Below the pieces are notes generated by a model that worked only from the letters and a program-made list of their open reading frames with translations, ran no database searches and was not told the DNA's origin. Made by a program: the position numbers and the translations under genes. From Branchiostoma floridae (taxonomy: Eukaryota; Chordata; Leptocardii; Amphioxiformes; Branchiostomatidae), in assembly GCF_000003815.2 (NCBI RefSeq), contig NC_049983.1, positions 9,881,120 through 9,945,119 of the forward strand: DNA of 64,000 bases. The letters are read 5' to 3'. Below are positions 7,146-60,749 of this stretch, piece after piece. Within the stretch, counting starts at the first letter, position 1. Each line of letters opens with the position of its first letter.

Positions 7146-26481
<19,336 letters not shown>

Positions 26482-34420: not shown

Positions 34421-37400
34421 ATGCGTCTATGGATAGCCAGTTTGCTTCTTGCGTACTCATGGTTTGTGGCCAAAAGTACAGGTGAGTTTGCTTATGAGTT
34501 GTCTTCAAACGAAACGTATGAGCGACTAAATGTAGCTTCGGTCCCCAAACCAGTTATTATTTCTATTTAACAAGGACGTTTTCGAGCTGTCTTGACTATA
34601 ATCTTTATCGGTGGAATATGTTGGTGTAATAAATTTGGTCTGTTCTCACCTGAATCGTGACTGGGAATTAGGCATACAAATTAATGCAGTCTATGAGAGA
34701 CAGGTTCCACCTGCACCTGTTATTTTGCATGAATGTGAACAGAATCTGTCAAGTTATGCCAATTATTTCTTTGATCTGACTTGTATCGATTTACAAGATT
34801 TCATAAGATGTAAGAAAAGAGGTGGAATCAAAGTTGTAAGGTTAGGACAGGCGACATGTAATATGTGTTGTTGTTTACATGTTGTCTGCACCCTTTGATC
34901 GGGGCTACTTCTTTGTGTAATCTAGTGTCGTAGTTTTACAACTGACTCTTTAATGCAAACTTCTCCGTCCCATACCCTATTCGACAGGCCCAAAACAGTT
35001 GTAAAATAAAATGAAATGTGATTTAGACTATGACAATGCGCCAATCCTGACAATAATTCACAGTTAGTAGTTCAACCAATTATACAGAGCATGACAATAT
35101 CGGTTCGACATATTTGGCAATGCATTTCTATGCCTTTATTTTGCATTCCAATCCGGGGTCCGGCCGGGATGTTTGTAAAAAAAGAAAACTAGAAATGTTT
35201 ACGTAAAATTATACACATCACTATTATCTTTACGTCTTGTGTACTTTTATATCATACTTTTCGTTCCCGAAAGCTGCCCGACCTGGCTCCAGTTTGGAAA
35301 TGTGACGTACGCTTTGGCATCATCCGCATGTAAAGAAAAACTACATCTTGTATCATTAGGCCACAGCAAGTAAATTTTATGGATGACATCCTCTGCAGAC
35401 TGCAAAATTAGTGCAATCTAAAATTAAAAAAAACAAGATGGGTGAAAAAAAACAAGATGGCTACATTTTCAAAATAGGCACCATAAAGTTGTGATGACTG
35501 TTGTAAACAGAATTAAAGGGACCAAACATGCTATCAGAGCCAACAAGGCATTCATTCCTGTATCTAAGACATGTACTGGTGTGGTAAAAGTGACATTAGT
35601 GTGGTAGACTGGCATCGCCAACAAAGTTGGTAACCACACTCATGGCTTCCATATTGGTGTCACTTTTACAACTATCCAATACGTTTCATTTCTACATCTA
35701 TAATCCTAGGTAACTCGCAAGTGTCACTTCCACAAGTACAATTATTAGCCTACAACACAATATATTTGCTCATTTTGGTACTTTGTCGTCATGTTGACCA
35801 TCCCTGCAGAAGAAAAAAATCTTTTTTTTCTGAAATCAGGCGAAAATTAATGCGCGCGCTGATGTCATCCAAAAAATTTACCTGCTGTGACCTTATACAA
35901 AAAAACTATATCTTGTTTCATTACACTGTTTTTTCCCCACAGGATCAGGAATCACCTATGAAAGCTCTGCAGATAGCTTACGTCACCTGTTGGACAATCA
36001 CTTCTCGTCTGACCGTCATCACGTGACCAACCCCGAGGGTAAGGAGGATGCCGTCATCTTCATCACGGAGCAGTTTAAGAAGTACGACCTACAAGTCTTC
36101 TCACAGATGTTCGACACGGACACCAAGGGGGTAAGTTGTAGATATAAGTAGTTTTAAAACAGTTGATGTGGTGTTACATTATGGATAGGACGGAATGTCG
36201 CAAACCCGAGAACAATATGAATTACCCATTATTTTGCCAATGTTAAATAGATGTGCGTCTGGAAAAAAGTAAAAATGTAGAGAACACTTTTGTGACATGT
36301 TTTAAAAATATTTCGTCAAGATTAAATAGATGCACTCGGTAAAAGACGGTACCATAATTTAACTTATAAATATGCACATTATAGCTATTTTTGTAACGAC
36401 AATGTTTGTCGAGTGTAAAGATGACCCAAAAATGTCTTAAACATACACGGTTTCACCATGTTCCAAAGATGTATACAACCAAGGTACAATACAATCATTT
36501 AAGGTCAAAGTTAGCATTACGCCTTTAGTACGTAGTCGGGCATTTATACAGAGGAAGATTATGGAGAGTCACGATTGGAAAACTATGTCATTTTTGTTGA
36601 GTAGTACAATGCTTAACTTTATTCATGATCTTTATTTGCATGTTCCTGCCCATGTGGACTAAATGCAGCAAATCCCATGATGGGATACTAATAATAATAG
36701 ACTAAGTACTATAACATGTAGTATTACAATTGAATAAACAATACATCTGCAACTATGCTATCACTATATCTAACGTTTACATGACTCTTCCCTTTTCTTA
36801 AAACATGTGTATACGAACTCACAGAGTTTGTGTTGTACAAAGTTGTCTGTGGTTGTCATTATATGTACAAACAGGTTGTCGTTGGTTAACTCTTTACTCT
36901 TTATTCTGGACAAAGGTATACACGGACCAAATTTTCAGCGACCACTGACGCCTTCTTCGGGATAAATACTGATGATCTTAGCATTTAATTTAATTGTATT
37001 ATGATTACGACCAACACAGATGAGCTTCCATGACATTTTTGTTGCGTTTGGACATATTTCAAAACGAGGGCCATCGATTGTTGTTTCCAGGTCAAGGGAC
37101 GAAACATCATCGGGACCTGGCCCGGCCTGAAGACGGGGACGGCAGATGACCGGCCCGTCATGGTGGCCGCTCACTACGACACGGCCCGGGGCTCCCCGGG
37201 AGTGAGCGCGGACGGCTCGGGGATGGCGGCTCTACTGGAGGCCGTACGGATCATCACCGCCCGCTCCTGCATGCAGGAAAACTCCGTCATCTTCGCAGCC
37301 TTCGACTTCGAGGTGCACGAACGTAAGTTCAGTGGGAAACTAGCATGTGGAAAATGTATAACTGTGAAAACACAAACAGATAGACCAGGCGGTATACCTG

Positions 37401-40400
37401 ATAGGATTGAAGCGTCCTCCGTTGACCGTCCAGACCTGGGATGTCTGTCATATGTCTGATAGGCGACTAGTTCTACCAGCTCTGAATTCTCTTCTTGTTG
37501 CTTCCTCAAGTTTGAACTTGAAAGACAATATCCCCACTCACTTCCTGCCACTCACGGCTACTTACAGTGTATTCGAATACGTAAACGTATGGACACAGAA
37601 CACACATAAACATGGTGACACACCAAAAGTACAACCTTTTACACGGAAAACCTAAGTACACCATTTAACGTCCCAGAGGCATTGCTAACAAACAACCATA
37701 CGTAGATATGATAGGGCGTATTTCATTTGACTTTTTAAAAGTGACTGGATGTGGAAAAATACCACTCCTGCATTAGTTTTTTTTCTTTTACTCCTATAGA
37801 AAGTCACACTTCGGACTAAAAAAATATGTCTGGAATAGAGTGATCAGGTGAGCGACCCAACCTCAGATCTGAGTGGACTCCAGGCTACGAAGTACCAGTA
37901 TCTCAGTATCAATTTCTACGTTTTCAGAGGCCAGTCTGGAACACGCTGCCTGCCATGGCGTCGGCTGTGGAAGTGCCAACTACCTGAAGGAACTCCTCAT
38001 TCCTTACATCAAAAGTCTTGGGATCTCCTCTAGCGACTTCCAGGGAGCCTTCGTGCTAGACTCGGTCATGAACTTCAACAGTACAGAGGACAGTCAACGG
38101 ATCCCTGACGAAGAACGCTTCAAGGAGGTACGATATGTAACAAGCTGCAAGGGGGCTCATATTTACACCTTCCCAAATGCTAAGTGCTAAGAAGAGATCT
38201 AGAGAGTATGTACCGTTTTTAAAGCTTTAGGTATGACTCGGACGATCTAAGACCTCACTCACGACGTCGTTTCTTTCTGACGTCAAAAGAAAAAAAATAT
38301 TTGCCACCAAAACGAAAACCATTGCATATCAAGGTCAAATGATATAAAAACTTAATAGTTAATGCCGTATATCTAAACTTTAAACTTACCTAAAACAATA
38401 AGAACGCTGATGGCCAAGGCGATAAGCAAAGGCCAGAGAAATGAAATTACTTTCTTATTGGGATCGCATATACTATACATGTAGATTTTGTCTAAAGATA
38501 AAGAACTGAGCCTCTGGACTCAAATAGCACATGACATTGCACAGTTCAGTGGATGTCTAATAGAGTAGAACTCAACAGAAAATGGCACATTGAACTACGA
38601 TCGTACATTGAGGAACGTAGCCATAAGTGGTATTAATTTATATGTTGGTAATTTTCTCTAGGCCCCCGGATTTCAAGAAGCGTACACTCGGATAAAGGCT
38701 GACGGAAATAAGGGTGATTTCATCGCTCTGGTCGGGCGGAACTTTGACTCTTCCCTGTACCAGACCTTCATCTCAGCATGGGAGTCACTTCCTGACATCA
38801 GGTTTAAAAACCAGGTAACAAAACACTTTTAGATGCATATGGTTGTGAATATTAAAGCAAAAAAGCATTGTCTTTGTACTGAAATTCCTACACTGAACAC
38901 TTCTGTGACACGTATTGTTAAACATACTACTGTCTCCTGCGGTTACCAGGGAAGTAACGTGCGCTACCTCACCTTAGGATTCAATGTGCGTTACGTTGTA
39001 ATACCGACGGGCGTGTAGCAAACTCAAAGATAAAAGCCAATCCTGCACCAGATGGTACATAGAGCAGCGCCCAACAACGTTTCGCTGACCATTGGGCCAC
39101 ATTTATTACTCACTTGTACATTACAAAAAGGGGGCTGGTCCTGTAGTAGTGTTGTGTGTGTTCAACTGTCAAAATATTTCCCAAAAGCTGATTGCTAAGC
39201 AGAGAGAGCAGTGTGCACCACTTTAAAGCTTTTGGTATGAACATTGAAACCTCATTCATGACCAACCGACTTTGCCACTGCACCTGTCAGACGAATAAAC
39301 AAGTAAATCAACAAAAGGAATCGGTGTTTCAATAACGTTTCTCTTGTTTCTTTTCTTTCTTAGCTGCTGCACATGCCAGACAAAGACCTCCCCGCACAAA
39401 CAGACCCATACTGGGACGTGTACACCATGATGACCAGGGGAGACCACTACAGCTTCTGGACCACCGACTCTGACCTCAAGGCTATCCACATAACTGACAC
39501 CGGTGAGCCTAGATTGATCTTTGTTCATGTGAGCAGTACGTTTAAAATACTTGCGATTATAAGTATACCAAATATAAGTTTCCAACCATGCACGTGTAAA
39601 AGCAACCTGTTGGCATCCAATATCTCTAAGTCGATACGTATATCGCTTGGAATAGTTACTGAAAGTGCCCATGAAAATAATTTCATCAGGTTGGTAGGTC
39701 AATTAGGATAGTTTTCCTTCACACAAGTGATTAAATCTTAACTAATGACTTCTGGAAGTCAACCCCAGTTATGAACCGTGACGAGGGGGAATACAAACTT
39801 AGCCACGTTCGGGATTGTGTTCTCGACACAAAAGCGCCACCTACGTCGGCTACGTATAGCAGCGAGAAGCAGAACTCGAGTTAGAAGCTCAGAGGAAGAC
39901 GTCTGATAGACTCGAAAGACTAACTAGTTGTGTAAAAGAAAACTATTCAAAATTTATGTGGTTGTCCACGGAGGTTCTTTTTTATCAGTCCTTTTTTCAT
40001 CTATGGATACACACATGTAGTATTGTCAAATCAAGTCACTAAAGATATCCCTTCGTGATGTGTAATTTGTCATTCCAGTCCAGGAGCGCGGATACATGCA
40101 TGAATGTTACAACAAGCCCTGTGACAACACGGACCACCTGACTGCAGACAACATGGCGTTTCTGAAGAAGGTTACAGATGCCACCATCACGGCAGTCATG
40201 CAGATGGCAACGTATCCTGACAAGTGTCTTGGTAACAATCCTTTTTTGTCAGAGTATGAAACATTTGTAGACGAACAATAAATACTTGTCTTTCTGCTGA
40301 CGATTGGTAGTCAAAGAAAAACTTATTTTAGTTGTTGCTCTACTTTCACAAGACATACAGGCCAGGCTCAGTAAGATTGGTGTTACAAGGCTTTCTTTTA

Positions 40401-43400
40401 ATTGATCTTAGCGTTTTGGCGTTGTACCAAATAGGCTTGTATGTTTCCGCAAAATCAGCACATGCGGCGTTCCACTTTCAAAATTATATTGTTGATTGCA
40501 CACCATTCTTACCGTCATTTCCATAACTCTTACCCATACATGTCTTAGACAAAAGGAGAAAAAGAGCACCGAGCGAAAGAAAACCACGGCTATTATCTGG
40601 CCTGTGTTTACACAAACTCTCGCTGGATGGGCTTAATGACCCCCTCAACGAGTGTAAGGCCGATCGATAGGAGCGCAATTTTAGTCAAGCTAGGCCATTA
40701 TCATCATAGCTTTGGACGCACAGTCTCCACTCACATACTTGTATGTCTTCTCGTTGTTTCAGATCCTGACACGGAATCCCCTGATCTGTTGAAGAGTGGT
40801 ATAGTTCTTGACGGGAAGTCATGGCGAATGACTGCCGCGGGAGAAGAGGAAACATTTTCCTTCGCCGTCATCATCAACAAGGTCAAACCTAACGGTGCAG
40901 TGGAGGCTGTGATGGAGAACTCGGAGATCCAAGTACCGCTAGATGGTAATGAGGGCCTACATGTGGCTTTTCCGTAATAAGGCGTTGGATTTCTAATTCA
41001 TGTAATTCGTAGCGAGCAGCATTTTGCGTGATTGACTTCTTTGATTTTATTGTATTACGCAGGGTGGGTTTGTAAAGTCAGTGTTGATTGTTGTCAGGAT
41101 ACCCAAATGAAGACCCTTGGTAAGCTTTAAATCAGGTTAAGAATGAAGAATATAAGATGTACAAATACAATTTTTATTGACAGCTCTGATATAAACGAAT
41201 GTTTTTAAACTGTATAAACTGTTTTAAACGTTTCCCTCCTGGACTACCAAACCTAAAATGCTGTAGCGTTACTATTTGTCATTTGACTTATTTTCTCTTT
41301 GCCAGTTTTAATCAAATTTTCCTTTTTCAGAAGTGATGACGATGTCGGATGTTTGCTAGATTGCAGACCACTATATGCATTTTGCATTTCAATTTTAATC
41401 AACAAAAAAAGGTTGACTTATCGCCAATGGTGGATTCAAAATTTGCACTCCAAAAAGCATCATAAAGGTCAACTAGTCTGGTGGATAAAATCACACAAAA
41501 AATCACATCATTGAAAGCGATGGAACAACCTTCCGTCTAGCAATCTCTTGACCACGATATAAACATGCCGATAGATGTATACACAGAAAGTGTAGATCTG
41601 TTAGTTTTCTTCTACATCACACAGTAATCATACATTATATTCTGCACATTTTCCTCCTGCAGTTGTTGGAAGGTACAACGCTGAAAACAAGAGACTTGTC
41701 CTCCGTCTGGCCGAGCCTAGTCACACGACCAAGGCCACAGCGATGGTTGACCCGGCCTTACTACAGAGGTGGACCGTGAACGGGGAGGTAAGCACTATCC
41801 TCTACATTCAGACATTCTATTTATTTATCAATTTCAAGACAAGTGGATTGCCCCTTCAACTTATTGGGAGTTAATTTCCAAGAGGGCCCACTATACATGA
41901 AAACAAAACAAAACATGTTACATTCAGTAAGAGTATAGGCAACCAGTGGATAACATACAGTATATACATGTACTGTATGTAAACTGAGGCGTCATGAACA
42001 AAATCAGTGGTCAAAGGTCAAACCAATAACGTCAAATATGAAGGTTAGATACTGGAGGAGACATTGATAAAGGTGGTATCCCACTGCATTTGGGACACCA
42101 GTGTAGCGCTGTGGGGTTCGTTCACTGCGGCACAGTTTTGTTGTTTTCTCAGTTTTTTTTTAATAATTTAGATATTGCGTAATACGTTAAAGTATGACCC
42201 AGAAGACAACAAAATACACAAAACTTAAGAAAATTTGTTCTTTATCTCTGAAATTCGTTGAGTATCTTTCGAACCCCGCAGTGCCTCACCGGTGCCCCAA
42301 GTGCAGTGAGATACCACATTAATATAGAAGGTGGAGAGACTACTACTGACTGAGCTTTAAAATATAACCTATTGCATAATGATGATGATGATATCGCACA
42401 GATGTTACTTGGAGATAACGTTGTATCACATGACGAATATGAGTGTATTTGAAATTCTTTCTTACCAATAGCGGGGATTTTTTTTACCTAATCCTCTCTA
42501 CAAGGCTTTAATCTCTTACTGTTGATATTTTCAGGTTGTAGGTTTCCCCGGAGGTTTGGTGTACTATGGTTCCGTAAATGGGATGCAGGTTAAGGAGGAG
42601 TTCAACATCGCCTACTCAGAGGGTAAGGATAACCATGCATTTCATTACATTTTCTATCATTCAAAATCATTAAATGTAGGCATACAGTACCTCATTGCTT
42701 TATTACAAGCATCGTGTATCGGTATTTACTGAATACATCAATTGACCATCTTGTTGGTGTGTAATCTATCTATGTATTTCAGATCAGAAACCCTCATGCG
42801 TAAAAATCTACTTTATTAGTCCTGGCAAAATCTCATTTGAAGAATCAAATCGCTTGTGAATTGATCAGTCAATATGGTAAGGTACTGTAGGCATCAACAA
42901 TTTGGTGGGACATCATTGGTCGCCTATGATCTACATCTATACTATGCTATCACTTATCGTCGAAATGAACGTTTTGAATTAATATATAACCCTTCCGTTT
43001 TTCATCCCCACAGACCCGACAGTAGGACTCCGACAGTCGAACACAGCTCTGGCCGTCATCTTCGTCATCACACTGGTAGTGCTGATCGCTATAGGGGTCT
43101 ACCTGTGCTACGTAAAGTAAGTAACATAAAACGTTTGTCACACACTTCTTGGTATGATTCTAACCTGTTGAAATACAGTGGAGAGTTTTGTATTTCATGT
43201 AGTCAGACACAATGTCACAATAGCGATGTTTTCATAAGATTCAATTTGAAGTAGTTGGATTGAGACATCTTAAGCTTGGTATCAAATATCATCATAACTG
43301 CCTAACTCTTTCGCTTGCTCGCTTTATAATAGGTTTGGATATCCGGATATAAGAACAATGTATAGAGACTATAGACTCTTACACGACTTTCTTAATTCTC

Positions 43401-44742: not shown

Positions 44743-47700
44743 ATGGATCTCAACAAACGGCTGGCGGTTGTGTTCCTGTTGGTGGCCATGGTTGGTAAGT
44801 ACATTTGGATCAAGTATGTGCGTAATACTAGTCTAGGAGGGGGGGAAAACTTGTTGACATGACGAGATGTGCTAAACTATCGATAGCTATTCTCAGCGAG
44901 TGAAGGCATTCTAAAGTAAAATGCAAACAAACCCTGATACAATTCAGATCATTTTGAAGGAGCGAAAGTGGAGGGTGCACATTGCTGAAGAATGCGCAAC
45001 TCTCGAACCAGTATCAAAATTGACAACTTTACTGAAACAATTAGCCTTTCAATTGCAAACCTAAGCTACTATTGGCTAATTGTTCCCATTTCATGATATG
45101 GTCCAGACTGTAGGAATCTGATTTTCTCTCACACTAATTTGATGCTAGTAGTCACGTTATTCTTGTTGCAAAAAGGGGTGGAACCAGATCAGATAGTTAC
45201 CACAAGGCCGCCTTAATTGGTCTCATGACCTTTAAAAGTCGATAGTCCTGCATGTAAGTACAGACTCTGGGTCTAAACTCCACTGCAGTCCCAGAAGAGA
45301 CGTATCATTCAACTACGAGCAGTTTCCAGATAGCGTTTATATAGGTTAGGATTGCTTGTCGAGATCCGATGGATGTCCGGCCAGAGCAACAAAAAACTAA
45401 AATCGTGCATACATGACCCCGAGATGTAATGTTAGACCCATTTGTTGGTACATGGTCAAGAAAAAATTGCTAGGTGGGGTACACAACAAAGGCTACTTTG
45501 CATGCTTTGGAACAGTGCAAGGCCAATCATGGGGTTATTTGGCACGCCATGCTACAACCTGGGTAACAGCTCAGACTATCTATCACATTTATTTTGTTAA
45601 AAAATGTTGTCCAGTCGAAATCCGTGATAACTACTTTTTCGCGTGTTAACGGTTATCACAATGGTTATCACATTATTTCACCAGATTCTCTTACTAGTGA
45701 ATTAATGAGATAGCGCCCCTATAACTCATTTTTTCACTAGTCTAGTAGATTACAATAGCTGGTTTTGTACTAATGCTTCTTATAAGTAAATTAATAAGTT
45801 AAGACCCCTCTAACTCATTTTTCACCAGTAAGACCACATTTGAAAGCCTTGCACTGGTATCTTTTGTTTGGTCTTGAATTTCTTTTCAGGATTAAATAAA
45901 TGTGCAAATCTTGGGTAGCTTTACAGCTATCTATTCTATACTCCACCAAATGTGGTGAGACTTCTGACATTTGAACATTTCAGTTCATTGCCTGATAAGG
46001 GTGGGAGGTAACCTTTTTAAGTCGAGTCAGGCAAACGTAGTAGTCTGCTACAAACCATGTCTGCCTCCAGCCCTGTATGTGTGAAGGTTAATGACCCGTC
46101 CCGAGGTGCGAAATGAACTTTACAGTCTGATGGAACCTATGTTTCCTTAGCCTGGGTACCATCCGGATAGTAGTTCGCTCCTATGTTCGCTTCTGCTATC
46201 CAGACGGAACAGCAGAGAAGCGATATGTATCAATGTATAATGAATGTCAGAGCTAAGCGACTGTATATAGTATATAATGAACGCCTGAGCAAACTACTTT
46301 CTGGATGGTACCTAGGCTAATGTTTCTCTACTTCTTACACCTAAGTAACATTCATACTCCTAATGAATTTCGACAAGCCTTGATTGTAAAACATGTCTGT
46401 ATCTACCTTTCCACTATCACAAAGAAGCGAGAAGAAGTAGAATTCACTTAGTAGAATTATCATATAGCCAGGGGACGTGGGCTAATCAGACGGCCCCATT
46501 TCATGCTGGTTATGACGCCGTAACAGCCGTGCATTAAATTTTTGATTATCGCACGTGTGCATTAAAGACGTTTGAAAGTTTAAACCAATCAGAAGGACAG
46601 ACAAACAGGACGCTGGCCAATCAGAATGAGATATCCAGGAATCGTCTATCTGCCAAGATAGGGGAATAAGTACAGGCATGGCTTCGCTCACTCGGTGGTT
46701 TTATTCGGTGGTTATAGCAAAGGACCAGGCGTTATGACACCATATACACCTCGTGGAGGGTCATTAACCCTTAATTATAAGATCCTAGTGTTGGCTGACA
46801 GTGCATATATTCCATATATCTGTCAACTAATCTTTTGTTGTGGACCTGTAATTAACCCAGTGGGTATATATGTACAATGAAGGTCTTCATTCGTACATAA
46901 CACAGGTACCGTTGCCTGCCTGAGTTCCAAGGAAAACCTACAGAAGATGCTTGTGGACCATTTCTCGGCCAACCGCAATCATCACCACTAGACGAACGGA
47001 CCTAATATGTAGACGTATGCTGACGGATTACAATTTGCAACACCTGACGGATGCTGACGTATGTTGACAAATGCTGACGGATCCCAAAAACCATCACGAA
47101 TCCCAAAAAATGACGGATCCCACTTACATCCGCAACGCATTCGTAGGTATCCGTAACTCACGGTGGATGCAAACACGGAACCCGTATACTTACGTGCTTC
47201 GTGACGGATGCTAACACTGCATCCGTATGGATACTTCCTAAATTACGGACCCTATTCACATACGTAACGCATTCGTTGGTATCTATAAGTCACTAACGGA
47301 TTTAAACATTGCATTCGTATGAATACTTTACTTTTAACGTAAACAAAAGCATACGCCGCAGGATAATTGTTTATCAGCAAAAACTGTTCAGATGCAGACG
47401 AATTCGCAACATCCTGACGGATGCTAACGGATCCCCAAGATTACCAAAAGTCACGGATCACATACACATCCGTAACGCATTTGTTGGCATCCGTGAATCG
47501 CTGTGAATGCAAACACGGAATTCGTGTGCTTACGTAATTGGCGGATGCTAACACAGCATACGAAGGATACTTACTTTTATGTATGCGTGACTAGCACTCT
47601 TGTTTTTGAGCATATATTTTATTTTTTAGATTGGTCATATCTTTCCCCCTTTTTGTACCTCGGACACCACAGTTTGTAATGTCAATACAAGTGAGACGAT

Positions 47701-50700
47701 CCACGTTACGCTAGATACCAGGATACTCGGATTCGTAAGGATACGAAATGGTTTTTTTCTGCATTCGTGGCAAGATTACCAACAATGCACTGCTCCAGTG
47801 GATTGCTCCAGTGGAAGGGATTCCATTGGAGCAGTGCATTGTTGGTAATCTTGGGATATCTTAAATATGCGACTCTGTATTTTTTGCATCCGTACATTGG
47901 GGCGGTGTATTGTGGGTAATCCAATCGTTGTCGCTCTGACCAATCAGACTGCACATCAGTCAGTTTAAAAATAAAGCTGAGATAGTCAGCGTTGTCCGTG
48001 AGGACCGCAATCTTTTTGTACCTCAAACTTTGAGTTTTGAAACGTTGAACTCGGGATATGGATTTGTACACACGTGTGTGAACTTCTGTAGTAGGGTGAT
48101 GTTGAGGCGGTGAACAAACTCAAGTGGCAGTCGACGGACGGGACGGCGATCGAGGGACTGAAACAGCCAGCCCTGTTTTGTAGTTCGGCGTCCTAGCTGG
48201 AGCTATTTTACATCACTGTCCTGCGGATCTCACGGCGAGGTATGTTTTATACAATGATTGTTTCCAAACAATACCCGCTTTGAATTCGTCTTTGTGACTA
48301 CATTCCTTGTTGGCAAGTAGTTAGTAGCGCTTTTGGTATGCTTGGGCTGATCAGAAACTTATCAGAAAACGACATAACGGAGCCTTACAAAACACAAGTC
48401 ACAAGCATGATACTTGCTGAGTAACTGTTGACTTATTTGGGAAAAATTTGAATCATCATCAAAAGAGTACTTGTATACACATATGTTTGTCTCAAGCCTG
48501 GTGTTTATTCGCATAGGAACATTCTGTTCCAACGGTGTTTACGTGTTTGTTTATATGCGACGTCTCGTACACAATGCAAAGTCCGGCCGGGGAAGCAGAT
48601 CACACCTTGTCACTAATTATGCAACGCTAGACTCAGTAGACTGTTTCTGCCGCGCCCTCCCGGGGGACTTTTTTGGTATGATAATGCGGAATGTAACGGT
48701 GATAGTGGCGATACCACAACCTTGCACAATTAGATGCATTTGTTCCTGTTGTAGAACAAGCCATTCACCATTTCTTTTCATATACATCCTAATTACTTTG
48801 ACGGACGCATCCATCAAACATGGATGCTTTAGCTATCTCAAAATTTGATGGGATTAATCTTTCTCTTTTTCAGAAGGCGGGTCGACATTCTCTGGCCGTG
48901 TCAACAGCTGGGAGAACACTGGACTACAGGAAGGGCACAGAAGGAATTGAGCTGGGAGGGATCAGGGCGTAACTAGCCTGAAAAGAAGCGAAGCACTGTC
49001 ACTAGTAGAAAGGAGACTTTGTGCTGTTGCGAGAAGCTGTACATACTGATACTATAAGTCATGTTAGTTGTACTTTACAAGCTGGATTCACTATCTGTAT
49101 CCTGTAGCCGGATGTGGAAATTCCTTAGAGTTGGACATCGCGAAGACTTTGATTTGTAATAGAAACAGATATTCGTAGAAGCAAGATTAGCCACAGACTC
49201 CCATGTCAGCTTTACATAAAAGTCAAATTGTATTCACGTTTGATCCTATATTCTATTTGGAAGTATAAGAAGTCATGTGATATTGGCGGTTAAAGGATTA
49301 AACTTTCCCTTAACATAATTAGATAACAGGGACTCTCTGTACATACCTGCTATAACCCATTCTTGTTGCAATATTGTATCTGTATACATATCATGTGGCA
49401 GACAGGATTCGGCCTCGATGACATTACGTCGTTTAGTTCTTCTCAGGACTGGTTTAGAATAAGATTATTCTGTGCATTCTTTTCTATTTCAAATCGTGTT
49501 AGCCTTTTATAAGAAAGTAATTGGGCACACATGATATTGTGATTTGTCAAATGTGCGGAAAATTCATTAAAGTGACTTTGTATCTGCAGAAAATCCCGTT
49601 TTGGATTCTTTATGATCTGATCATACGAAGAAATCCCTAAAAAAACGACTTCGCATCCGCGGCAAATGCCGCATTGGGATTTCTTAGGATCCGACCATGA
49701 CAAATATACGAAGAAAATCCTATAAAAACGACTTCGCATCCGCGGCAAAGGCCGTTTTGGGACCCGTTCATTCCAGGTATTCGAAGAAATCCTTTGAAAA
49801 ACGACTTCGCATCCGAGGGAAATACCGTTTGGGGATTCTTTACGATCCGATCATTCCAGGTATTCAAAGAAATCCCTAAAAAAACGACTTCGCATCCGTG
49901 GAAAATCCCATTTTGGGATATGTTTGAGTCTTTTCATTCCGGATCCCAAAAATCCAAATTTCGGATATTTTAGGGATCCAACTCGAATCCGTTTGCATTC
50001 GCTAGCATTTGTTACAAATACGCAAATATCCCTGCTCGAATATGGCTACATCCGATACCCTTTCCCCTAGTGCACACCGGGAAAATCGGGAAACAGTCCG
50101 CGCTGCAGTACGTCTATGACACCTTCATAGAGCACGATCTGCAGGTCTTCACCCATACGTTCGACACCGATAACCCAAAGGTAAAAGAAACATGGAATAT
50201 TTTCGACCTTTACTTAACCTTGCTACATTTTCGGCCTAAGCCGTTTTTCAAGTCTTGAAGGATGGAGGAGGTCAGATGGCTTTCTTTCTTAATAGTACAC
50301 ACAGTGATTTACAGTTCAACATTTCATATTCGTGTTCAAAATAGAAATGAATTAACATAATATCAGTCTATCTCCGCATAGTCAGAACATGATTTCTTGT
50401 TGGGCATTATTCATAATATATAGTCTGCTCTAGATCTAAAATATCCGATCTCTATGTGCAGTCGAAAAACTGATCGAAAAAAAGAATGTGATCTACTTGT
50501 AAAGTAAATAACAGAATTGAAATATAACTGGAAAAACACGGACAAACAGCTAAAACCAAAACCTTCCCGTAAATCAGTAGACTCTTCCATGACCTGGACG
50601 ACGCTGTCTGATTAATGACTAGTTCTACCACCTTTGACTTAGTGCCTATACTTCCAGTCACTCATGTGTCTCTGTTATATATCATGTGTTTCTATAGTTT

Positions 50701-53700
50701 TGAGTATGAGGCACTTCAAATGGTCAATAATTTTCCACCTTACCTTCAATAGGTCAAGGGAAAGAACCTTATCGGAGTGTGGCCGGGCACGAGGGCGGCG
50801 ACTAAGAATGACCGCCCGATCCTGATCGCTGCCCACTACGACTCGTACCTGGACACGCCGGGCGTGTGTGCTGACGGATCCGGCATGGCCGCCCTACTGG
50901 AGGCTATCCGCGTCATCACGGCCCGGACATGCATACAGTACAACTCCATCATCTTCGCCGCCTTCGACTTTGAGGAAAAAGATACGAGTAAGTAATTTTT
51001 ACTCACATGGGCTGCTATACAATTAGCTAATAAATGATAACGTCACATTTCCCAACCGGAGCCCGGTCGGACTGTTTGCGGAAACGAAAAACAGAAATTA
51101 TTTAATTTTTTTATTTTTATTTATTTGCCAATGATACAACTCATTACACGGATCTGCCTAGGCAGCTTTGGGCTGGTAGCGGCAGATCCACAGAGATACA
51201 GACGAACATATATCATCGGTTGACGTGATCGCACATGTTCGCACATGTTTATTAAGTCAAATCATACACAAATAATGCACAGGACTATTCTCTTTACGTC
51301 CTGTGTGTTGGGGTGTCTTTTATATCATACTTTTCATTCCTGAAATTTTTACCTATGCAGGTGTGATAAAAATGTAACGTTGTAGCATGTCTTCGCTATC
51401 AACAGAGATGAGTTTTCATAGCGATGTGTAGACCATACTAGCTCACAACTTGTGTCACGCAACGTTTTCTGATTTTACCGTGATCGTTTTCATAGCGACA
51501 CAAGGATCGGCCTGCCGAACCTTCGGCTGCGGTAGCCGTGCGTACGTCAGTGAAGTCCTGGTGAAGTACCTGAAGTTTGTGGGCATCAGCTCGGCTCAAT
51601 TCCAGGGCGCCTTCATCCTAGACTCCATCCTGAACTTCAACGACTCCGTGGAGAGCCAGAAACTCCCTCTCGGCGACTTTCAAAACGTGAGAACACTACT
51701 CGACGAATAATGCTAGTTCTCCTTTATTCATTGGGTAACCTATGTCCGTTATATTTGAAACACGGTATTGGGGGATATAACGCTGGTTCACCTTTATCCG
51801 ACAGTAACTTATATTCGTTGTTTGTAAGAAAAACGTATTTAAGGATATGAAGTCGACGGACGGTGGTTTCAAATCGGAACATTTTGATAATATTGCAAAT
51901 TTGAAACCACAGTCAGCAGACTTGATACTCCTAAATGTGCTGTTTTTAAAGACAACGGATAACGGTCACCCCACGGATAAAGGTGAACTAGCGTTATATC
52001 AAGTCGACTAATAAAGATGGTTTCAAGCTAAGTCCGTCCGTCGACTTGATATCCCGGACTACCATGCTCTTAAAGACAACGAATATAGGTTATCCAGCGG
52101 ATAAAGTTGAACTAGCGTAAGATATATGAACAGTATTAACAGTGGGTAACGAATGCAGTGTCCATCTGCGAATGTACTGTCAGCGACTCGGTACAAAAAG
52201 AAATGGCCAGTAATATTGTTTTTATGAGTCCAAGAAATGACGAGAAAAGGCTCAGAGATCCTGCTATGTAGGCTACCCTTTCCACTACTAACTCATCACT
52301 GCACAACCGTCGAGGGACAAAAATGGGATTTTATTTGACCCCTTTATATTCTATATTTGGAGTGTGATGCAAGATCTTAAAGTATGATTCAAAAGACAGC
52401 AAAACACACAAAAATATAAAACAATATTGTTTTAAATCTAAATTCATTGAACGAACTGTCTTGGTCACCTAGCGGTTGCCATCTCTATTGAAAAACAAAT
52501 TGGGAAGTGTATAATTATGGTATTTTCCATGCTCTCACGATGTATGCTTTTTCTACTTCAGGCACCAGGACTACAGGACGCCTATAACGCCATCACCGCA
52601 CACAACCGCAAAGGGGATTTCGTGACTCTTGTAGGACGAGACCACGACAGCCCTCTGTACCAAGAGTTTATGCGAAGCTGGAGTAATTTGCAACTCCTGC
52701 ATTATAAGGACCAAGTGAGTAAACAAAAGAATTATTAATTGATAAAATGCATATCAATTATAATCTATTCTTTGCATTTGTTTGTGTTTACTTTACTTTT
52801 TGGTATGGCGGCTTTGAAAAGGAACACCTGTCCCGCTATACCTTCCACTGCGTTTTAACATGTTGGACAATTTTGATAGATAAATAGATAAATGAAAAGA
52901 AATAAGAAACTATGAAAAACTAGAGTTCCTCCATTACACACCTTCGCCAAATAATCAAGGCTTGTTATGGAGAGTGCCTCTATTGAAAACTGTATGATCT
53001 CATTTATGCATTACTAAAAGACTATCTACAACTTATCGAGTTATGCTGTTGACATATATGCAGACCCACACCATATCCACTACACCATGGCACAACTGAA
53101 AACATAAATTTCTGGCGAAGGTATTATATCACTGATAGCAATTTCCCAGTATCATGGTAGTGATACAAAAGACCAGATCTCCATTTACCAATACATTGTA
53201 TATGAATGAAGACTTTTATTATACGTATATACTCACTAGTACAGGTCGCAACAAAATGATAGATCTAACAGTCTACAAAGTTAAGCTCTCTTTATATGTA
53301 TACATCCTACTACAAAATACTGTTCATCTTCTATTCAGATAACAATACCTACATATCAGTTGTTGCTCTTCACTTCCTTCAGTTGATGCGCATCCCCTTG
53401 AAACAAGTGCCACCCGTTGCTACACAGGAACACTACGAGTACTGGCCTGTCTACAGGGATCTGACTTACGGGGACCACTACAGCTTCTGGCAATACGACT
53501 CTGACCTCAGGGCCATCCACATCACTGATACCGGTTGGTACTTTAAAAGTTTGGAGTATTCCTAGATCGTAAAAGTGTTAAAACAGTGGCGGGGTCGCGT
53601 GGCGTAACAGCAAGAGGTCCCGGGTTCGAATCCTGCCATATGCATGTCACCAATACTGTACCCTTGGTCTTACAACAGGCACTTAACGACACTTTTTTTT

Positions 53701-56700
53701 TCATCTCAATCAGGTGAAAATAAGTACCTATCTAACCTAGAAGGCTCCATTTGATATCAGAAGACAATACATTTTGGTACTTGAGATTTAAGTTGTTTTT
53801 TTTAGATCATAAGATGGCCAACAGTGGTTAAAGGAAACGGAGAGAATGCCTATATATAGATGCAGGCAGAAGACCCAATAGAAACTCTACGTTTTTCTTA
53901 TTAATGCTTTAACTTTGGTTAACGAAAACTAAAGTATTAGTACCGTAGGTTGCTACTTGACCGGTGCACCATTCACTGATACAAGTTTGTTTCCGATAGT
54001 AAGAACTGTCCGTTGATTTTGATTTGATTTATTCGGCTGTATAATCATGAGAAATACAGCCAGGGCTACCCAACTAGCCTGAGGCTATTATCAAGGGCTA
54101 GCCCTGGTAACATTACAATATACGTTATACAATAGTATACAGTATACGTTATTAAAGCTAAAATGTAAGATATATATTAGATAATGTTCTAAAATAGTAC
54201 AATCCACGACAAATTGAGCTTCATCTTCTACTGTGTTCAAGTTAGGTACAAAATCAATTAACAAATCTAACAAAACAAGTGTTTCTAAACAGAACTATGC
54301 TATTTTTATTTCAAACATCCCGCCAGGCCCACTGAGAGGATACATGCAGGAGTGTTACCACAAGGCCTGCGACAACACTGACCACCTGAACCAGCAGAAC
54401 ATGTTGTTCCTGAAGAAGGTGACAGACGCAACGATCGATGCCGCCATGACGCTGGCTGTTTTTCCTGAAACTTGCAAAGGTACAATGTAGTTATAATCAT
54501 CATTATCATCCTCTTAATCTTCATTATAATCACTGCAGTAAGCATGTACTTGATATGCTGGCCGTTATTGTTATCTGTTCTGCTCTGTTGTCCCCATGCT
54601 CGGCAAAGTAATGGTATATTCGTTAGCTGAACTGTGAATCCTTACTCTTGTATCATGTGATTCTAAAGGCGGAGTGATTCAAATTTCTTTGCAGAGTTAT
54701 GCAAGTGATCTAGGTAACAATTAGTGTGGCTGGTGAGAATGCTGTAAAATTGTACACAAAGGTAGTGGTTATATGCCTCATTAGAAAAGAAGTGCGGATG
54801 CTTTTGTCGTCTATCTCTCTGTGTCGCCGTCCACCAATAACCCATCTCCATCTGCAGTTCTGTTCCCAGTTAATGTAGATTTATTCTTCACCTTCTCTGA
54901 TAGACAATATAGTATACATGGTAATTATGTTATCAGCAAAAAGATAAAGACTACCTTTGGTGAAGAGGTTCATCAGTCACGTATGCATACAGTTACTACA
55001 ATTTTCTTCAATCAATGACTGTTTTGTCAAGATACAGTACATACATCCCAAATTTTCGATGTCTTCCAGCACATAGTCTCGTGTTCTCTCGCGAGAATTG
55101 AGGCTAGGTCATTCCCCGTGACAAAGATGTGCTGGTAGACATCGAAAATTTGGGAGGTATGTACTGTACCTTTACAAAACAGTCATTGATTGAAGAAAAT
55201 TGTTGTAACACAAAGACTATCTTTGTCCTTCATGATTTTAAGACAAAATGTGTTTGTTTGCCCCATGTACTTGGGTACAGATCCATGGGAAAATTCCCCC
55301 GAGATGCTGAAGAGCGGGATATACCTTCAAGGGAAGGTGTGGGGCGATAACAAAAATCGTCATGGATTCACTCTCCACCTGAAGGAGTTCAAACGAAACG
55401 GTGCCGTGGTGGCCACGATCAAGAACGGTACAGTGGAACTGGACCTGGATGGTACGGTCATTACATTTTTAGACATGCGTCTTTAGCTTGTCCCTTGGAA
55501 TACAACCCACGCGTAATGTCAATTGTGTACCAAAAAGCTAGAAAAGACAAGAACTTAAACTTTCCGGAACGACACAATGAGCCCATTCCAATTTGCGACG
55601 GGGCAGATTTTCAGTGAAATTACGATCGTGCGATCTAAAAATTTCGGTCGGAGTTTGCTTGAAACGTGACGCTGAGTTTTTGGCGATATTTAGCTTTGTT
55701 AATGGAGATTGTATGAAATGATAAAAGCTTCTCACATTATCTTAAAGCTTGTGTGTATTTTGACCAAAATAAGCAATGTCAATAAAAAGATATCGTTTGA
55801 TGCGCAACTTTAGGTCGCTACAACGCCGACAGCAAGAAGCTGATTCTCCGTATGGCCCAACCCAGCAACACCGCCGCCCTGCCAGTCAAGTACGACCCCG
55901 TGTACCTGATGAAGTGGACCATGACGGGCGAGGTAATAGATCTAGTTTATCATGTCAATGACCATAAGAGTTGTACGTAGGTTGGGAACAAGTCAGGAGC
56001 AAAAGCACACTACGGGCACTTAGCCTCCTTCACCGGCCTCTCTGGGGGCCTTGGCGTAAGTTGCTGTTGGGGGGGGGGGGGGGTCGATTCCTGGATTTNN
56101 NNNNNNNNNNNNNNNNNNNNNNNNNNNNNNNNNNNNNNNNNNNNNNNNNNNNNNNNNNNNNNNNNNNNNNNNNNNNNNNNNNNNNNNNNNNNNNNNNNCG
56201 GGACAGGAATATATACCGGGAAGCCTGTACTGGCTAATGGGATATTTTCCTTTCCCGGCGTATTCCCGGTTTAAAATCGCGAATCGACCCCCCACCCACA
56301 CCCCCACCCCACCCCACAACAATAACTTATGCCAAGGCCCTCAGAGAGGCCGGTGAATGAGGCTAACGGGCACTGCTGTCATACTCCAAACTACCAGTCA
56401 ACCTGTCCTCGACCCATTCCAGACCTCCTGTCAACAGCCGAATATTTTAGCCGACCACCGCCGACCAACTTTACTGTCAGCCACAGCCGACCTTGCTTAC
56501 ACATGACTTTTAACCATGGCTGGATGGGTGAAGGTTGTCAGGAGGCCATGGTCGGCTGTGTGCAAAAAAAAAATAACTTGAGACATGATGAGGTTGATTT
56601 GAATCAACTGATGACCAGATACCTCTTGGCAATCAAGTTGCTTTCAAAGAGGAATCTGGTCATCAGTTGATTCATGTACATGTCAGTAATTTGGTAACAC

Positions 56701-58039
56701 AACTTCGAATTCTTCCTGTGTCCCTCCAGTTAGTTGGGTTCGCAGGAGGCATTCTGTACTACGGTTTTCTGGCCGGACCGAACAATGACCCTGAAGAGTT
56801 CAGCATCACCTATTCTGAAGGTAGGTGATGAAATATCTTTTTAGTTCTCATTAGATGTGTATTTGTTGGTGTTAAATATGCAAAAATCAGAATATTTGCA
56901 TCATATATGTATGTATATTTGTATCCATGCGTGTGGTGCATGGATGTACTAGTATGTATGTTTTTGAGTTGCAGTGACATTTCCTGTCCGCCATGCTATT
57001 GACAGGATGTTCCTGTCTATAGTGCCAAAAAGTCTTACAAGTATTACAAAAAATCAGTGTTAAGTTCAATCGATTCAATAGTTGATTTACCTTGCCTAGG
57101 ACTGCCAATAATTCTTATTGTTGTATCCTCTAACAAGACCCTGCTCAGTGTTAGGGATATTAAAGGGGTTAAGGTTAGGGTTGATAGGATCATTGAAATC
57201 CTGTCAATAGTACAACAATTCTTATTGACATGAATACCCTGTCAATCATCTCAGTCTTTCCTGTCGAGTAGCTTTATTTTTCATACCAACTGCTATAAAG
57301 TGTACATAAAGGAGTTTGATGACAATCTTTAACACGCCTTCTGTTCGAAATCTTTTCTTTCTCGTAGACCCGTCAGTTGGACCTAACCAGGCAAATGTAG
57401 TCCTAGGTGTGCTGCTGCTGATAGCTATAATCGCCATCATTGCATTCATTGCGTACATCGTGTACATAAGGTAAGTATCAATCATTATTGTATAATAATT
57501 AACGTTACATATTTTCTGCACTGTAAGCCAATTAATGTGTAGAATACTTAGTTTTTTTACATTTTACTCATGAAAAAACATAAAGATGCAGATAAAGAAA
57601 CTAAGACGTCTTCATGTCTTACAAAAAGGTCATGAATTTTTAGTCAGATTAGTAATGGTTCATGTGATCATGGCGCCAAAATGTTTGATGTAACATTCTC
57701 CGCTTTCAGTCTTCATGTAAACATACGTGAACCGTACCATTCCAAGGTTTATACTAGGCAAATGCGGTACTTATTTCGATCAGACATAAACTTGTATCTA
57801 GCAAGTAGGCTTTAGTGAATCTGCTGGGATTGAGCTGCANNNNNNNNNNNNNNNNNNNNNNNNNNNNNNNNNNNNNNNNNNNNNNNNNNNNNNNNNNNNN
57901 NNNNNNNNNNNNNNNNNNNNNNNNNNNNNNNNNNNNNNNATTTAAAAAAAGAAATGTGTTTTTTCGTCTTACTCTTAGCAGCCACAATGCTTTTGGTCAA
58001 CCGATAATTTAGTTTTTATCATTTCTCTTTAGGATGTAA
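44743..58039 (+). CDS. Membrane-anchored M28 metallopeptidase, copy 2, split by a transposon
   Basis: Exons: 44743-44794, 46906-46985 plus 50076-50180 (one exon split by a transposon), 50753-50987, 51496-51686, 52562-52714, 53383-53533, 54327-54479, 55281-55451, 55814-55932, 56730-56820, 57368-57470, 58033-58039. The number and phase of introns equal copy 1. Without the insert the frame would be 536 codons with no other defect. Catalytic set, counted without the insert: H107, D120, E153 and E154 (FDFEE complete), Asp in FILDS, His in GDHYSFW. It starts with a signal peptide (MDLNKRLAVVFLLVAMVG) and ends with a membrane helix (VVLGVLLLIAIIAIIAFIAY) followed by a very short tail, the last exon adding only Arg-Met-stop. 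AATAAA at 58057-58062 closely follows. As read in this assembly the insert puts an in-frame TAG after NRNHHH, so the allele is broken unless the insert is spliced out. Confidence 0.88.
45690..45840. repeat. Short tandem duplication, ~95-bp unit
   Basis: Two copies sharing gaattaatgagatagcgcccctataactc and aaattaataagttaagacccctctaactc, each ending in attttTCACyag. Intronic in peptidase copy 2. Confidence 0.6.
46148..46321. mobile_element. Intact MITE with ~30-bp TIRs
   Basis: The left end tagcctgggtaccatccgg and right end ccggatggtacctaggcta-like (ctggatggtacctaggcta) are inverted, extending inward through tagtagttcgctc and gagcaaacta. About 174 bp, no coding capacity. A broken relative is at 17991-18371. 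Confidence 0.88.
47771..47856. repeat. Inverted repeat inside the CACTA element
   Basis: The arms are caagattaccaacaatgcac and gtgcattgttggtaatcttg, with a loop that itself duplicates ctccagtgga. A strong hairpin is predicted. Confidence 0.85.
47928..48972 (+). other. Gene-like unit carried in the CACTA element
   Basis: Two CCAAT motifs (near 47929 and 47939) and a TATA-like ttaaaaataaag (about 47964) precede a GC-richer block ending in a donor (GGCGAG|gtatgt, 48239/48240). An acceptor follows a pyrimidine tract (ttctctttttcag, 48873). Reading across that junction stays open from just after 48170 to a TAG near 48975, but there is no convincing ATG and I recognise no domain. It could be a captured host fragment, a relic of the element's own gene, or chance. 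Confidence 0.35.
49585..49915. repeat. Right subterminal tandem repeats of the CACTA element
   Basis: About four to five units of roughly 75-85 bp sharing aaaacgacttcgcatccg, ttttgggatt and ccaggtattcaaagaaatcc. Their location next to the terminus fits transposase-binding subterminal repeats of CACTA elements. Confidence 0.85.
51709..52125. mobile_element. MITE cluster, ACTAGTTCACC TIR family, nested copies
   Basis: Termini gctagttctcctttattc, ggttcacctttatccgac and, inverted, cggataaaggtgaactagc and cggataaagttgaactagcg occur repeatedly, with internal tcaagtcgac motifs. One copy appears inserted in another. Same family as 21788-22012. Intronic in peptidase copy 2. Confidence 0.8.
52330..52490. 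mobile_element. Decayed MITE core (GGTATCTCA family)
   Basis: The internal segment aaagtatgattcaaaagaca and gcaaaacacacaaaaatat resembles the core of the copies at 7650-7860 and 42070-42325. The terminal repeats are degraded. Confidence 0.5.
53586..53720 (+). mobile_element. tRNA-derived SINE
   Basis: A pol III A-box-like gcgtggcgtaacagc and a B box cgggttcgaatcc lie at tRNA spacing but do not fold into a full tRNA. They are followed by the SINE-type tail gtacccttggtcttacaaca and a T run. Intronic in peptidase copy 2. Confidence 0.7.
54970..55230. repeat. Long inverted repeat, arms ~90 bp
   Basis: The left arm includes ttcttcaatcaatgactgtt and catcccaaattttcgatgtc; the right arm has gacatcgaaaatttgggagg and aacagtcattgattgaagaa. 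The loop near 55085-55120 is small. A foldback element upstream of peptidase copy 2 exon 8. Confidence 0.9.
56020..56370. repeat. Foldback element around an assembly gap
   Basis: The arms agcctccttcaccggcctct and agaggccggtgaatgaggct extend inward through gggccttggcgtaagttgct and its complement to a poly-G/poly-C run. The N gap at 56099-56198 sits between the arms. Confidence 0.88.
56099..56198. other. Assembly gap (100 N)
   Basis: A run of exactly 100 N, the placeholder size for an unknown gap, inside the foldback element. It is intronic, so no peptidase exon appears to be lost. Confidence 0.95.
56600..56674. repeat. Hairpin with ~28-bp arms
   Basis: tgaatcaactgatgaccaga and tctggtcatcagttgattca pair around a loop of about 17 bases, with a cctctt/aaagagg extension. 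The size is like a microRNA precursor, but it also fits a small MITE. Intronic, 56 bp upstream of exon 10 of peptidase copy 2. Confidence 0.75.
57840..57939. other. Assembly gap (100 N)
   Basis: Run of exactly 100 N between the membrane-helix exon (ends 57470) and the last exon (58033) of peptidase copy 2. An extra tail exon could be hidden here. Confidence 0.95.
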
Positions 58040-59240: not shown

Positions 59241-60695
59241 TCACAGTGCAGTTGTTGCGGTGTTGGTATTCTTATACACAACGCTGAAATCTGGACCTTT
59301 GGAAGTCTTGTTTTTCCTCTTACGCCAGACTGCCGCAATGGTGACAACAATGAGGAGTGTGCCGGCTATGGAACCACAGACAGCACCAATGAGTACAGGT
59401 AGGGAGAAGACGATCGCTGTCATTGATGGCCTCAAACCAGTCGTGGGTAGGTCTACAATCAGGGTGGCAAACGTGGAGCCGACTGGATTTTCTGCAGTAC
59501 AGACGTACAGACCAGCATCTGCTGCTGTTGTATTTCTCACAGTGATCGTACCATTCACATCCACAGTCACCCTCCCACCTGACTCAACAGTAGCATTGAG
59601 TCCTGATGGGAGGGTAACTGTGATATCTGGTGTAGGGATTCCTGAAGCTTCACAGACTAAACTGAGAGTCTCTCCTTGTACCAATAACATGTTATCATCT
59701 CTTCCAAACTTTTCAATTGTTGGTTGTTCACAACCGGACATCAGATTCTCGGGATTTATATCTTTAAGCATCTGTCCATAGAGTTGGTCAGGTTGGGAAC
59801 AATTTACCTGGTATTCAAATGAATAAATTCCCGTCATCTTTAACCTAAAGTCAAACATCCTACAGTCACACTGCCAGGGGTTGTCCTGAATTCTCACAAG
59901 GAAGATCGACGAAAGTATGTCATACGCTACAGATGGAAGGGTCGTCATTTGGTTATTGTCAAGGTATAGAGTACCGATTGTTTGTATTTTTGACAAACCT
60001 TCAAATGGAAACGATGTGATGTTATTGTTGGACAATTGGAGGGAATCCAGCTGCAGTAGATTTCCCAGTAAATTTGAAGGGATGGTCGCAATGTGGTTGT
60101 GATTCAGGTACAAGGATTTGAGATGTGGTGTTGGATCGAAAGTCCCAGGCTGAATATTAGAGATGCCATTATCATACAGATAAAGGGTCTGCAAGTTTCC
60201 CAGCCCTGTAAACATGTCAGATCTGAGATGTGTTAACTTGTTGCTCTGCAGGGACAAGCTTATAAGTCGAGGTGTCGGACTAAAAGTGCCAGCCTGAATA
60301 TCACTGATATCATTAGAGAAAAGAATCAGGCTCCGCAAGTTTCCCAACCCTGTGAACATGTCAGCTCTAAGTATTGCTACTCGGTTATCATTAAACCACA
60401 TTATGGTCACATTTGATAAGTAATAGAATGCTTGGCTATTGATGGTAGATATGCTATTTCTATCGAGATATAAATCTTCTAAGCTTCTATATCGTGAGAA
60501 ATCAGACTGACTTAAAGTTGTCAACAGATTAATTCCCAGGTCCAAGTTCGTGATGTTTGTCGGCAGGTCCTGTGGAACGCTGGTGAGGCTCTGGTTGTAG
60601 CAGTTACATAACGTGGATGAACAGCTACAGGATTCCGCCGTTCCCAGCAGCTTCAGAAGGACCAGGAGAAACACCAGCAACAGTTTCTCACTCAT
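59241..60695 (-). CDS. LRR-Ig single-pass transmembrane receptor, intronless
   Basis: A single open frame of 484 residues from MSEKLLL (an upstream in-frame Met at 60734 would add 13 residues and spoil the signal peptide). Domain order: signal peptide (MSEKLLLVFLLVLLKLLG), Cys-rich LRR N-cap (CSCSSTLCNC), about eight LRRs with the LxxLxLxxNxI pattern, LRR C-cap (NPWQCDCRMF), one I-set Ig domain (CEASGIPTPD to DAGLYVCTAENP), a membrane helix (VLIGAVCGSIAGTLLIVV) and a 27-residue basic tail with SVVYKNT, a possible phosphotyrosine site. Several N-glycosylation sites are visible. It resembles the large lancelet LRR-Ig family and vertebrate LRIG/LINGO/AMIGO-type proteins; orthology is not assigned. 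It is probably an adhesion or pattern-recognition receptor. It lies between the peptidase array and its possible third member, in opposite orientation. Confidence 0.93.
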   Translation of the reverse strand: MSEKLLLVFLLVLLKLLGTAESCSCSSTLCNCYNQSLTSVPQDLPTNITNLDLGINLLTTLSQSDFSRYRSLEDLYLDRNSISTINSQAFYYLSNVTIMWFNDNRVAILRADMFTGLGNLRSLILFSNDISDIQAGTFSPTPRLISLSLQSNKLTHLRSDMFTGLGNLQTLYLYDNGISNIQPGTFDPTPHLKSLYLNHNHIATIPSNLLGNLLQLDSLQLSNNNITSFPFEGLSKIQTIGTLYLDNNQMTTLPSVAYDILSSIFLVRIQDNPWQCDCRMFDFRLKMTGIYSFEYQVNCSQPDQLYGQMLKDINPENLMSGCEQPTIEKFGRDDNMLLVQGETLSLVCEASGIPTPDITVTLPSGLNATVESGGRVTVDVNGTITVRNTTAADAGLYVCTAENPVGSTFATLIVDLPTTGLRPSMTAIVFSLPVLIGAVCGSIAGTLLIVVTIAAVWRKRKNKTSKGPDFSVVYKNTNTATTAL

Positions 60696-60749
60696 GATGC
60701 ATTCCCTGTGTCGGCACAAGGGTACGAGGTACAAGGATTATCAATATTA

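Follow-up and report, generated by a model that had tools for sequence, protein, structure and literature searches.

A CACTA-type transposon in exon 2 of a tandem M28-type gene of Branchiostoma floridae: a probable null allele of recent origin

Introduction

The stretch of the Branchiostoma floridae genome analysed here, referred to as the window, comprises 64,000 nucleotides of contig NC_049983.1 (positions 9,881,120 to 9,945,119 of the forward strand) and contains a tandem pair of genes whose predicted products are membrane-anchored M28-type proteins. Exon 2 of the second gene (copy 2) is divided by 3,087 bp of additional sequence bounded by short direct repeats. The locus raises the question of whether this sequence is a transposon, and if so whether it has silenced the gene in all animals or in some, or is bypassed in the transcript. 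The results are best explained by a non-autonomous CACTA-type element that probably entered exon 2 recently, the interrupted allele most likely being a null that segregates beside an uninterrupted one. The case is ordinary in kind; large insertions and deletions (indels) derived from transposable elements are reported to be common in lancelets (PMC4284660). It offers a clean and datable interruption of an animal gene by a DNA transposon, in a genus for which high polymorphism and transposon activity are described.

Results and Discussion

Insertion of the element in exon 2 of copy 2

The predicted non-autonomous element occupies positions 46986..50072 on the plus strand, in sense orientation to the gene, and has ends common to 23 other complete copies in the genome. 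It is flanked by the target site duplication CAC on the left (46983..46985) and on the right (50073..50075), coordinates that agree exactly with the boundaries and duplication proposed in the first-pass annotation of the window. Exon 2 is thereby divided into a first part of 80 nt that includes the left duplication (46906..46985) and a second part of 105 nt (50076..50180). When the flanks were rejoined without the element, the result was a 185-nt exon that encodes ...HFSANRNHHTGKIGK... and has an open frame in the same phase as its 188-nt counterpart in copy 1 (35943-36130), as the same annotation had held.

Pairs of CACTAG and CTAGTG spaced 0.3-15 kb apart occur 45 times in the window, and the pair bounding the element is the only one with matching 3-bp flanks, where 0.7 pairs (45/64) are expected by chance. 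The terminal match of this pair over 27-bp ends (18/27) is the best of the 45, the next best being 16/27. Taken alone, these statistics are only suggestive. The decisive evidence is from the genome, in which the 23 other complete copies have identical end points and 22 of them are flanked by a 3-bp duplication. The results confirm that the insertion in exon 2 of copy 2 is real. No description of it was found in the titles and beginnings of abstracts of the literature searched.

The element family in the genome

The first 375 bases of the element were used as the query for a search of the genome (513,431,437 bases in 431 contigs). At least 79 matches were obtained in 40 scored places of 68 candidates, and the left end of the element is present at a minimum of 40 places including the window. 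Among the places scored, 16 (the window again included) match the left end at 98% or more over at least 370 bases. Sequence was fetched for 32 of the 39 other places and not for the remaining 7, in a first batch of 20 and a second of 12, the latter together with three longer stretches. Complete copies of 2,900-3,972 bp were found in 23 of the 32, the one copy that is not flanked by a 3-bp duplication being L009. The other nine (L014, L016, L019, L024, L028, L029, L033, L039 and L040) have one end absent, interrupted, gapped or altered within the fetched stretch; the left ends of L039 and L040 are altered, and neither was counted as complete. An extra stretch of 7.5 kb in L029 has N-free frames of at most 152 amino acids, as judged by frame lengths only.

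Two of the 24 complete copies, the window copy (M28) and L034 (TPR_12, PF13424), are situated in open frames with matches to host protein families, a count judged by open frames across the joined flanks, with approximately 100 bases of left flank for the eight copies of the second batch; the search against protein families did not extend to the remaining copies, among which frames of 75-99 codons also occur. The L034 copy (G000:C19:7904947 onwards) is complete, lies antisense between L034 positions 100 and 3124 with a CTA duplication, and interrupts a 120-codon open frame that matches TPR_12. The copies at L021 and L023 interrupt frames that, with the element removed, stay open for 183 and 378 codons and that, by eye, look like retrotransposon reverse transcriptases.

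Anatomy and classification of the element

The matching 27-base termini are the left terminal repeat, CACTAGACGAACGG... (46986..47012, plus strand), and the right terminal repeat (50046..50072, minus strand), the plus-strand reading of which ends in CCCTTTCCCCTAGTG. The first-pass annotation had described CACTAG termini on both sides. This stands for the left end; the second CACTAG is the product of a C-to-T substitution at 50068..50068 (plus strand, element position 3083) that is private to the window copy and changes the right end of the element from CACTG, as in the other copies, to CACTA. All 23 of the other complete copies end on the right in CAGTG (CACTG on the opposite strand), and the window copy alone in TAGTG, the right ends of the second batch of eight having been sought with a pattern that permits CAGTG or TAGTG only.

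Repeat analysis revealed left subterminal repeats, TGACGGATGC and related units, at 47009..47562 and right subterminal repeats with the core GCATCCG and a spacing of 73/83 at 49566..49918. The motif CGGATGC occurs 11 times in the element versus twice in the remaining 61 kb of the window, with four forward and three inverted occurrences in the left 0.9 kb and four inverted near the right end.

Among the complete copies, the Pfam scan covered the frames of the window copy, and no Pfam match above a curated cut-off, to a transposase or otherwise, was obtained in its eight start-to-stop open reading frames of at least 60 amino acids or its six longer stop-to-stop frames. The best Pfam match within these frames (E 0.0054, 17.5 bits) is under the cut-off of 28.7, and the presence of a transposase inside the element was rejected on this basis. 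The long open frames of the other complete copies are 95-190 amino acids, with 114-190 listed for the single longest of each copy, and none of the 24 complete copies has a frame above 190. Since the window copy is without a recognisable transposase it is read as a non-autonomous CACTA-type transposon, which would have been mobilised in trans by a transposase encoded elsewhere; mobilisation by transposases of the Transposase_21 (PF02992) type is characteristic of the CACTA (En/Spm) superfamily.

Two further features lie inside the element. A palindrome at 47771-47853 has 32-base arms that are 97% complementary. A good donor, GAG/GTATGT at 48239, is followed by the top-scoring acceptor of the region, CTTTTTCAG/AAGG at 48874, and together they look as if they were the remnant of a transcribed gene.

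Three features support the CACTA label: the left terminus, the duplication of 3 bp and the subterminal repeats. A 3-bp target site duplication, described as a feature of the CACTA (En/Spm) superfamily in PMC4158355, flanks the window copy and all but one of the 23 other complete copies. The left end reads CACTA in the window copy and in 23 of 23 other complete copies, a set recovered by searching with that same end, and the subterminal repeats are both direct and inverted, an arrangement given as a CACTA feature in PMC8195511. The right end of the family does not read TAGTG, CAGTG being found in its place in the 23 other complete copies. Since the family lacks CACTA at the right end, the element is termed CACTA-type and not a proven member of the superfamily. 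ProtoRAG/Transib-type elements, which have CAC termini, produce a 5-bp target site duplication, and the duplications of the present family are 3 bp. Animal members of the TRC group are described as starting with CCC and having 2-bp duplications (PMC1636069).

The non-autonomous CACTA element LsC1 of lettuce shares with the window copy the lack of a transposase gene, imperfect terminal repeats and a 3-bp duplication, and is reported to sit at a host gene, ANS, as the window copy sits in its own (PMC8195511). LsC1 is given there as 3.9 kb long with 28-nt imperfect terminal repeats and several copies more than 96% identical. It differs in being a plant element of a superfamily whose two ends are both given as CACTA in the same source, and red leaf spots are reported as a sign of its somatic excision in lettuce.

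Consequences for the transcript

With use of the normal exon-2 acceptor, an in-frame TAG is the second codon past the insertion point, and the predicted product is a 45-residue stub. In view of this stop and stub the allele is most likely null, with loss of function expected for transcripts spliced in this way. Skipping of exon 2 breaks the frame, and splicing to the acceptor inside the element (48874) runs into a stop. The first-pass annotation had offered exact removal of the element from RNA, restoring NRNHH-TGKIGK, as an alternative to a null allele. The sequence does not support this: an exact intron of 3,090 bases could be placed in four positions, none of which provides both GT at its start and AG at its end, and exact splicing-out was rejected as incompatible with GT-AG splicing. 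Candidate donors in exon 2 upstream of the insertion (46910, 46923 and 46952) have scores below 0 and were also rejected.

A different bypass is predicted from a potential 3' splice site at the end of the element, CCCTTTCCCCTAG/TG (50058..50072, plus strand), with an 11-nt pyrimidine run, a score of 3.95 and an exon beginning at 50071. Joining of the exon-1 donor at 44794 to 50071 would skip 80 nt of exon 2 together with the element. The predicted junction is in frame and open, and would replace 26 residues upstream of the M28 domain with one valine to give a near-full-length protein. On balance such a bypass is considered unlikely. With an acceptor matrix built from the 20 acceptors of both genes, native sites being scored by leave-one-out, the site at 50071 scores above the native exon-2 acceptor (1.41) and above 5 of the 20 native acceptors, and the CAG form of the right end in other copies scores 5.76. 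A pyrimidine run of at least 11 nt within 18 bases upstream of AG is found for 0.59% of the 3,728 AGs in the window. However, 10.1% of the AGs in the window score at least as high as the site, and with an earlier 18-site matrix the site scored 2.29 and 20.4% of AGs were as good. No branch-like match to yTnAy is present upstream of 50071, a deficiency shared by 6 of the 20 native sites. A stronger competing acceptor (48874, score 10.5) lies upstream inside the element, as does a competing polyA-like signal at 47970, and the fit in phase has by itself a 1-in-3 chance of arising.

Precedents for splice sites at transposon ends are reported. The maize A2 dSpm allele of Menssen 1990 reportedly has an En/Spm element with splice sites at its termini, as the title of that work states, and the maize bz-m13 dSpm allele is likewise said to have a CACTA-type element in the gene with splice sites at the termini. 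These alleles resemble the site predicted here in both respects, but splicing is reportedly proven in maize whereas here it is predicted only and exact restoration is impossible. In C. elegans, splicing is said to remove Tc1 insertions from mutant pre-mRNA (Rushforth and Anderson 1996); Tc1 is also an animal DNA transposon found in exons, reportedly removed imprecisely, and is of a different superfamily from the element here. Should splicing make use of the terminus of the element, the locus would provide an example from an invertebrate chordate of transposon termini softening exonic insertions. It is conceivable, if doubtful, that copies of the family carry a ready-made terminal 3' splice site (pyrimidine tract, CAG or TAG, then TG) by which sense exonic insertions are bypassed; if true, the family would be an animal counterpart of maize dSpm and would help explain the tolerance of young exonic insertions. 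Introners with target site duplications and terminal inverted repeats are described as DNA transposons able to carry a 3' splice site (PMC9860276). Most Introner families are reported there to preserve the length of the mRNA, in contrast to the net deletion of 75 nt that the bypass would cause here.

Age and status of the interrupted allele

The age of the insertion was estimated against the majority sequence of 13 copies, with L026 omitted as rearranged and L023 and L027 as more diverged. The window copy differs from the majority by 29 substitutions in 3,063 aligned bases and by 8 indel runs. Of the 29 substitutions, 13 are common to L009 and no more than 4 occur also in L023; 15 (0.49%) are private within the 13-copy set and represent an upper bound on the time since insertion among the copies sampled. 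A rate of single-nucleotide polymorphisms (SNPs) of 4.39% is reported for B. belcheri (PMC4284660), and one SNP per 34 nt for lancelets (PMC12373286, a study that drew on 41 B. floridae resequencing samples). If a divergence of 3-4% between lancelet alleles holds, the insertion is young, and at 4.39% or one SNP per 34 nt a neutral insertion of such an age would usually still be segregating. Because it is young relative to this divergence between alleles, the insertion most likely segregates beside an uninterrupted allele. PMC4284660 also reports 36,859 large indels in B. belcheri, approximately 65-77% of which apparently arose via transposable element activity. These share with the element described here the genus, the size class (300-10,000 bp) and the likely cause; unlike them as a general class, the present element is mapped precisely within a coding exon.

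Several results weigh against a young, segregating allele. For B. belcheri the filtered calls of PMC12373286 put the SNP density at one per 174 nt, and compared with that value a private divergence of 0.49% is not young. A second haplotype of the locus was not found among the 41 matches listed (40 of 196 candidates scored), in which one place alone covers the full 915-base flank. The intactness of the remainder of copy 2 is weak evidence, since without selection 1.1-2.0 lesions are expected at 0.49% divergence (probability of none 0.34-0.13) and 2.1-3.9 at 0.95% (0.12-0.02). On the same calculation gene intactness was rejected as proof of function. With respect to the haplotype, the B. floridae reference is described as two highly divergent haplotypes of one animal merged into one, in 19 chromosomal scaffolds (PMC7269912). 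Since the assembly is merged to a single haplotype and one full-length flank is listed, the other allele is not visible in it.

The foregoing results also bear on whether the element is fixed throughout B. floridae and copy 2 is a pseudogene, which is judged improbable, and marginally more so than the splicing bypass. Fixation would accord with the presence of the element in the sole haplotype found among the matches listed, and the lower SNP density in PMC12373286 would leave more time for it; yet the private divergence is well under the 3-4% between lancelet alleles, and the gene model contains no second lesion. Misplacement of the element into the exon during assembly, for which a repetitive family with many nearly identical copies gives some grounds, is very improbable given the private substitutions and the flawless target duplication, at a site for which the matches listed include one of full length. 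The proposal of the first-pass annotation that the locus represents a null or polymorphic allele is thus supported, but not proven, by the family copies, the duplications and the low private divergence, the polymorphism itself being inferred. If the young, probably polymorphic null allele does segregate, carriers and non-carriers would constitute natural knock-outs and controls for one of two tandem M28-type membrane proteins.

The tandem M28-type gene pair

The exon models of both genes are sequence predictions in which the first and the last exon of each gene were placed by splice score, phase and the resemblance of one copy to the other. Copy 1 (34421..43120, plus strand), the uninterrupted tandem paralogue and the reference for exon phase, is predicted to encode 542 amino acids in 11 exons. 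The model of copy 2 (44743-57474), with the insert excluded, has 532 open codons in 11 predicted exons with GT/AG introns. Exon 1 (44743..44794, plus strand, predicted) contains the start codon, a hydrophobic signal-like segment and the phase-1 donor GTTG/GTAAGT. The M28 domain starts in exon 3 (50753..50987), which is followed on the plus strand by exons 4-6 (51505-51686, 52562-52714 and 53383-53533) and 7-10 (54327-54479, 55281-55451, 55814-55932 and 56730-56820). Exon 11 (57368..57474, predicted) encodes a C-terminal hydrophobic segment and the stop. Both predicted proteins begin with a hydrophobic, signal-like segment, have an M28 domain and carry a further hydrophobic segment at the C-terminus, and both match PF04389 (Peptidase family M28) above the cut-off of 21.3 bits, copy 1 with 57.8 and copy 2 with 63.2 bits.

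No lesion other than the element was found in the 11-exon model of copy 2, consistent with the earlier observation that all other exons are open. The insertion had been called recent relative to the decay of the gene; it is correct that no second lesion has yet appeared, but the exons, as modelled, show zero decay against which to set it. The estimated dN/dS between the copies of 0.28 (0.411/1.466, two exons being saturated) shows past constraint on the pair and not on present-day copy 2. In both copies the position of the metal-bridging Asp aligns with Ala (window 37091-37322 and 50753-50987), and copy 1 has EV at a position where EE is usual. Catalytic competence in the M28 family requires a full set of metal ligands. 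Both copies may be altered or inactive as peptidases.

Other features of the window

Intron 1 of copy 2 contains a short stretch (46174-46317) related to another at 18309-18416, the first of which resembles an inverted-repeat element by eye. In the intron after exon 2, approximately 50200-50385 is an unrelated interspersed repeat that matches 40 other listed genome places at 71-90%. On the minus strand, 59244-60737 is a 498-codon open frame in which leucine-rich repeats, an Ig-like segment and a transmembrane segment are apparent by eye.

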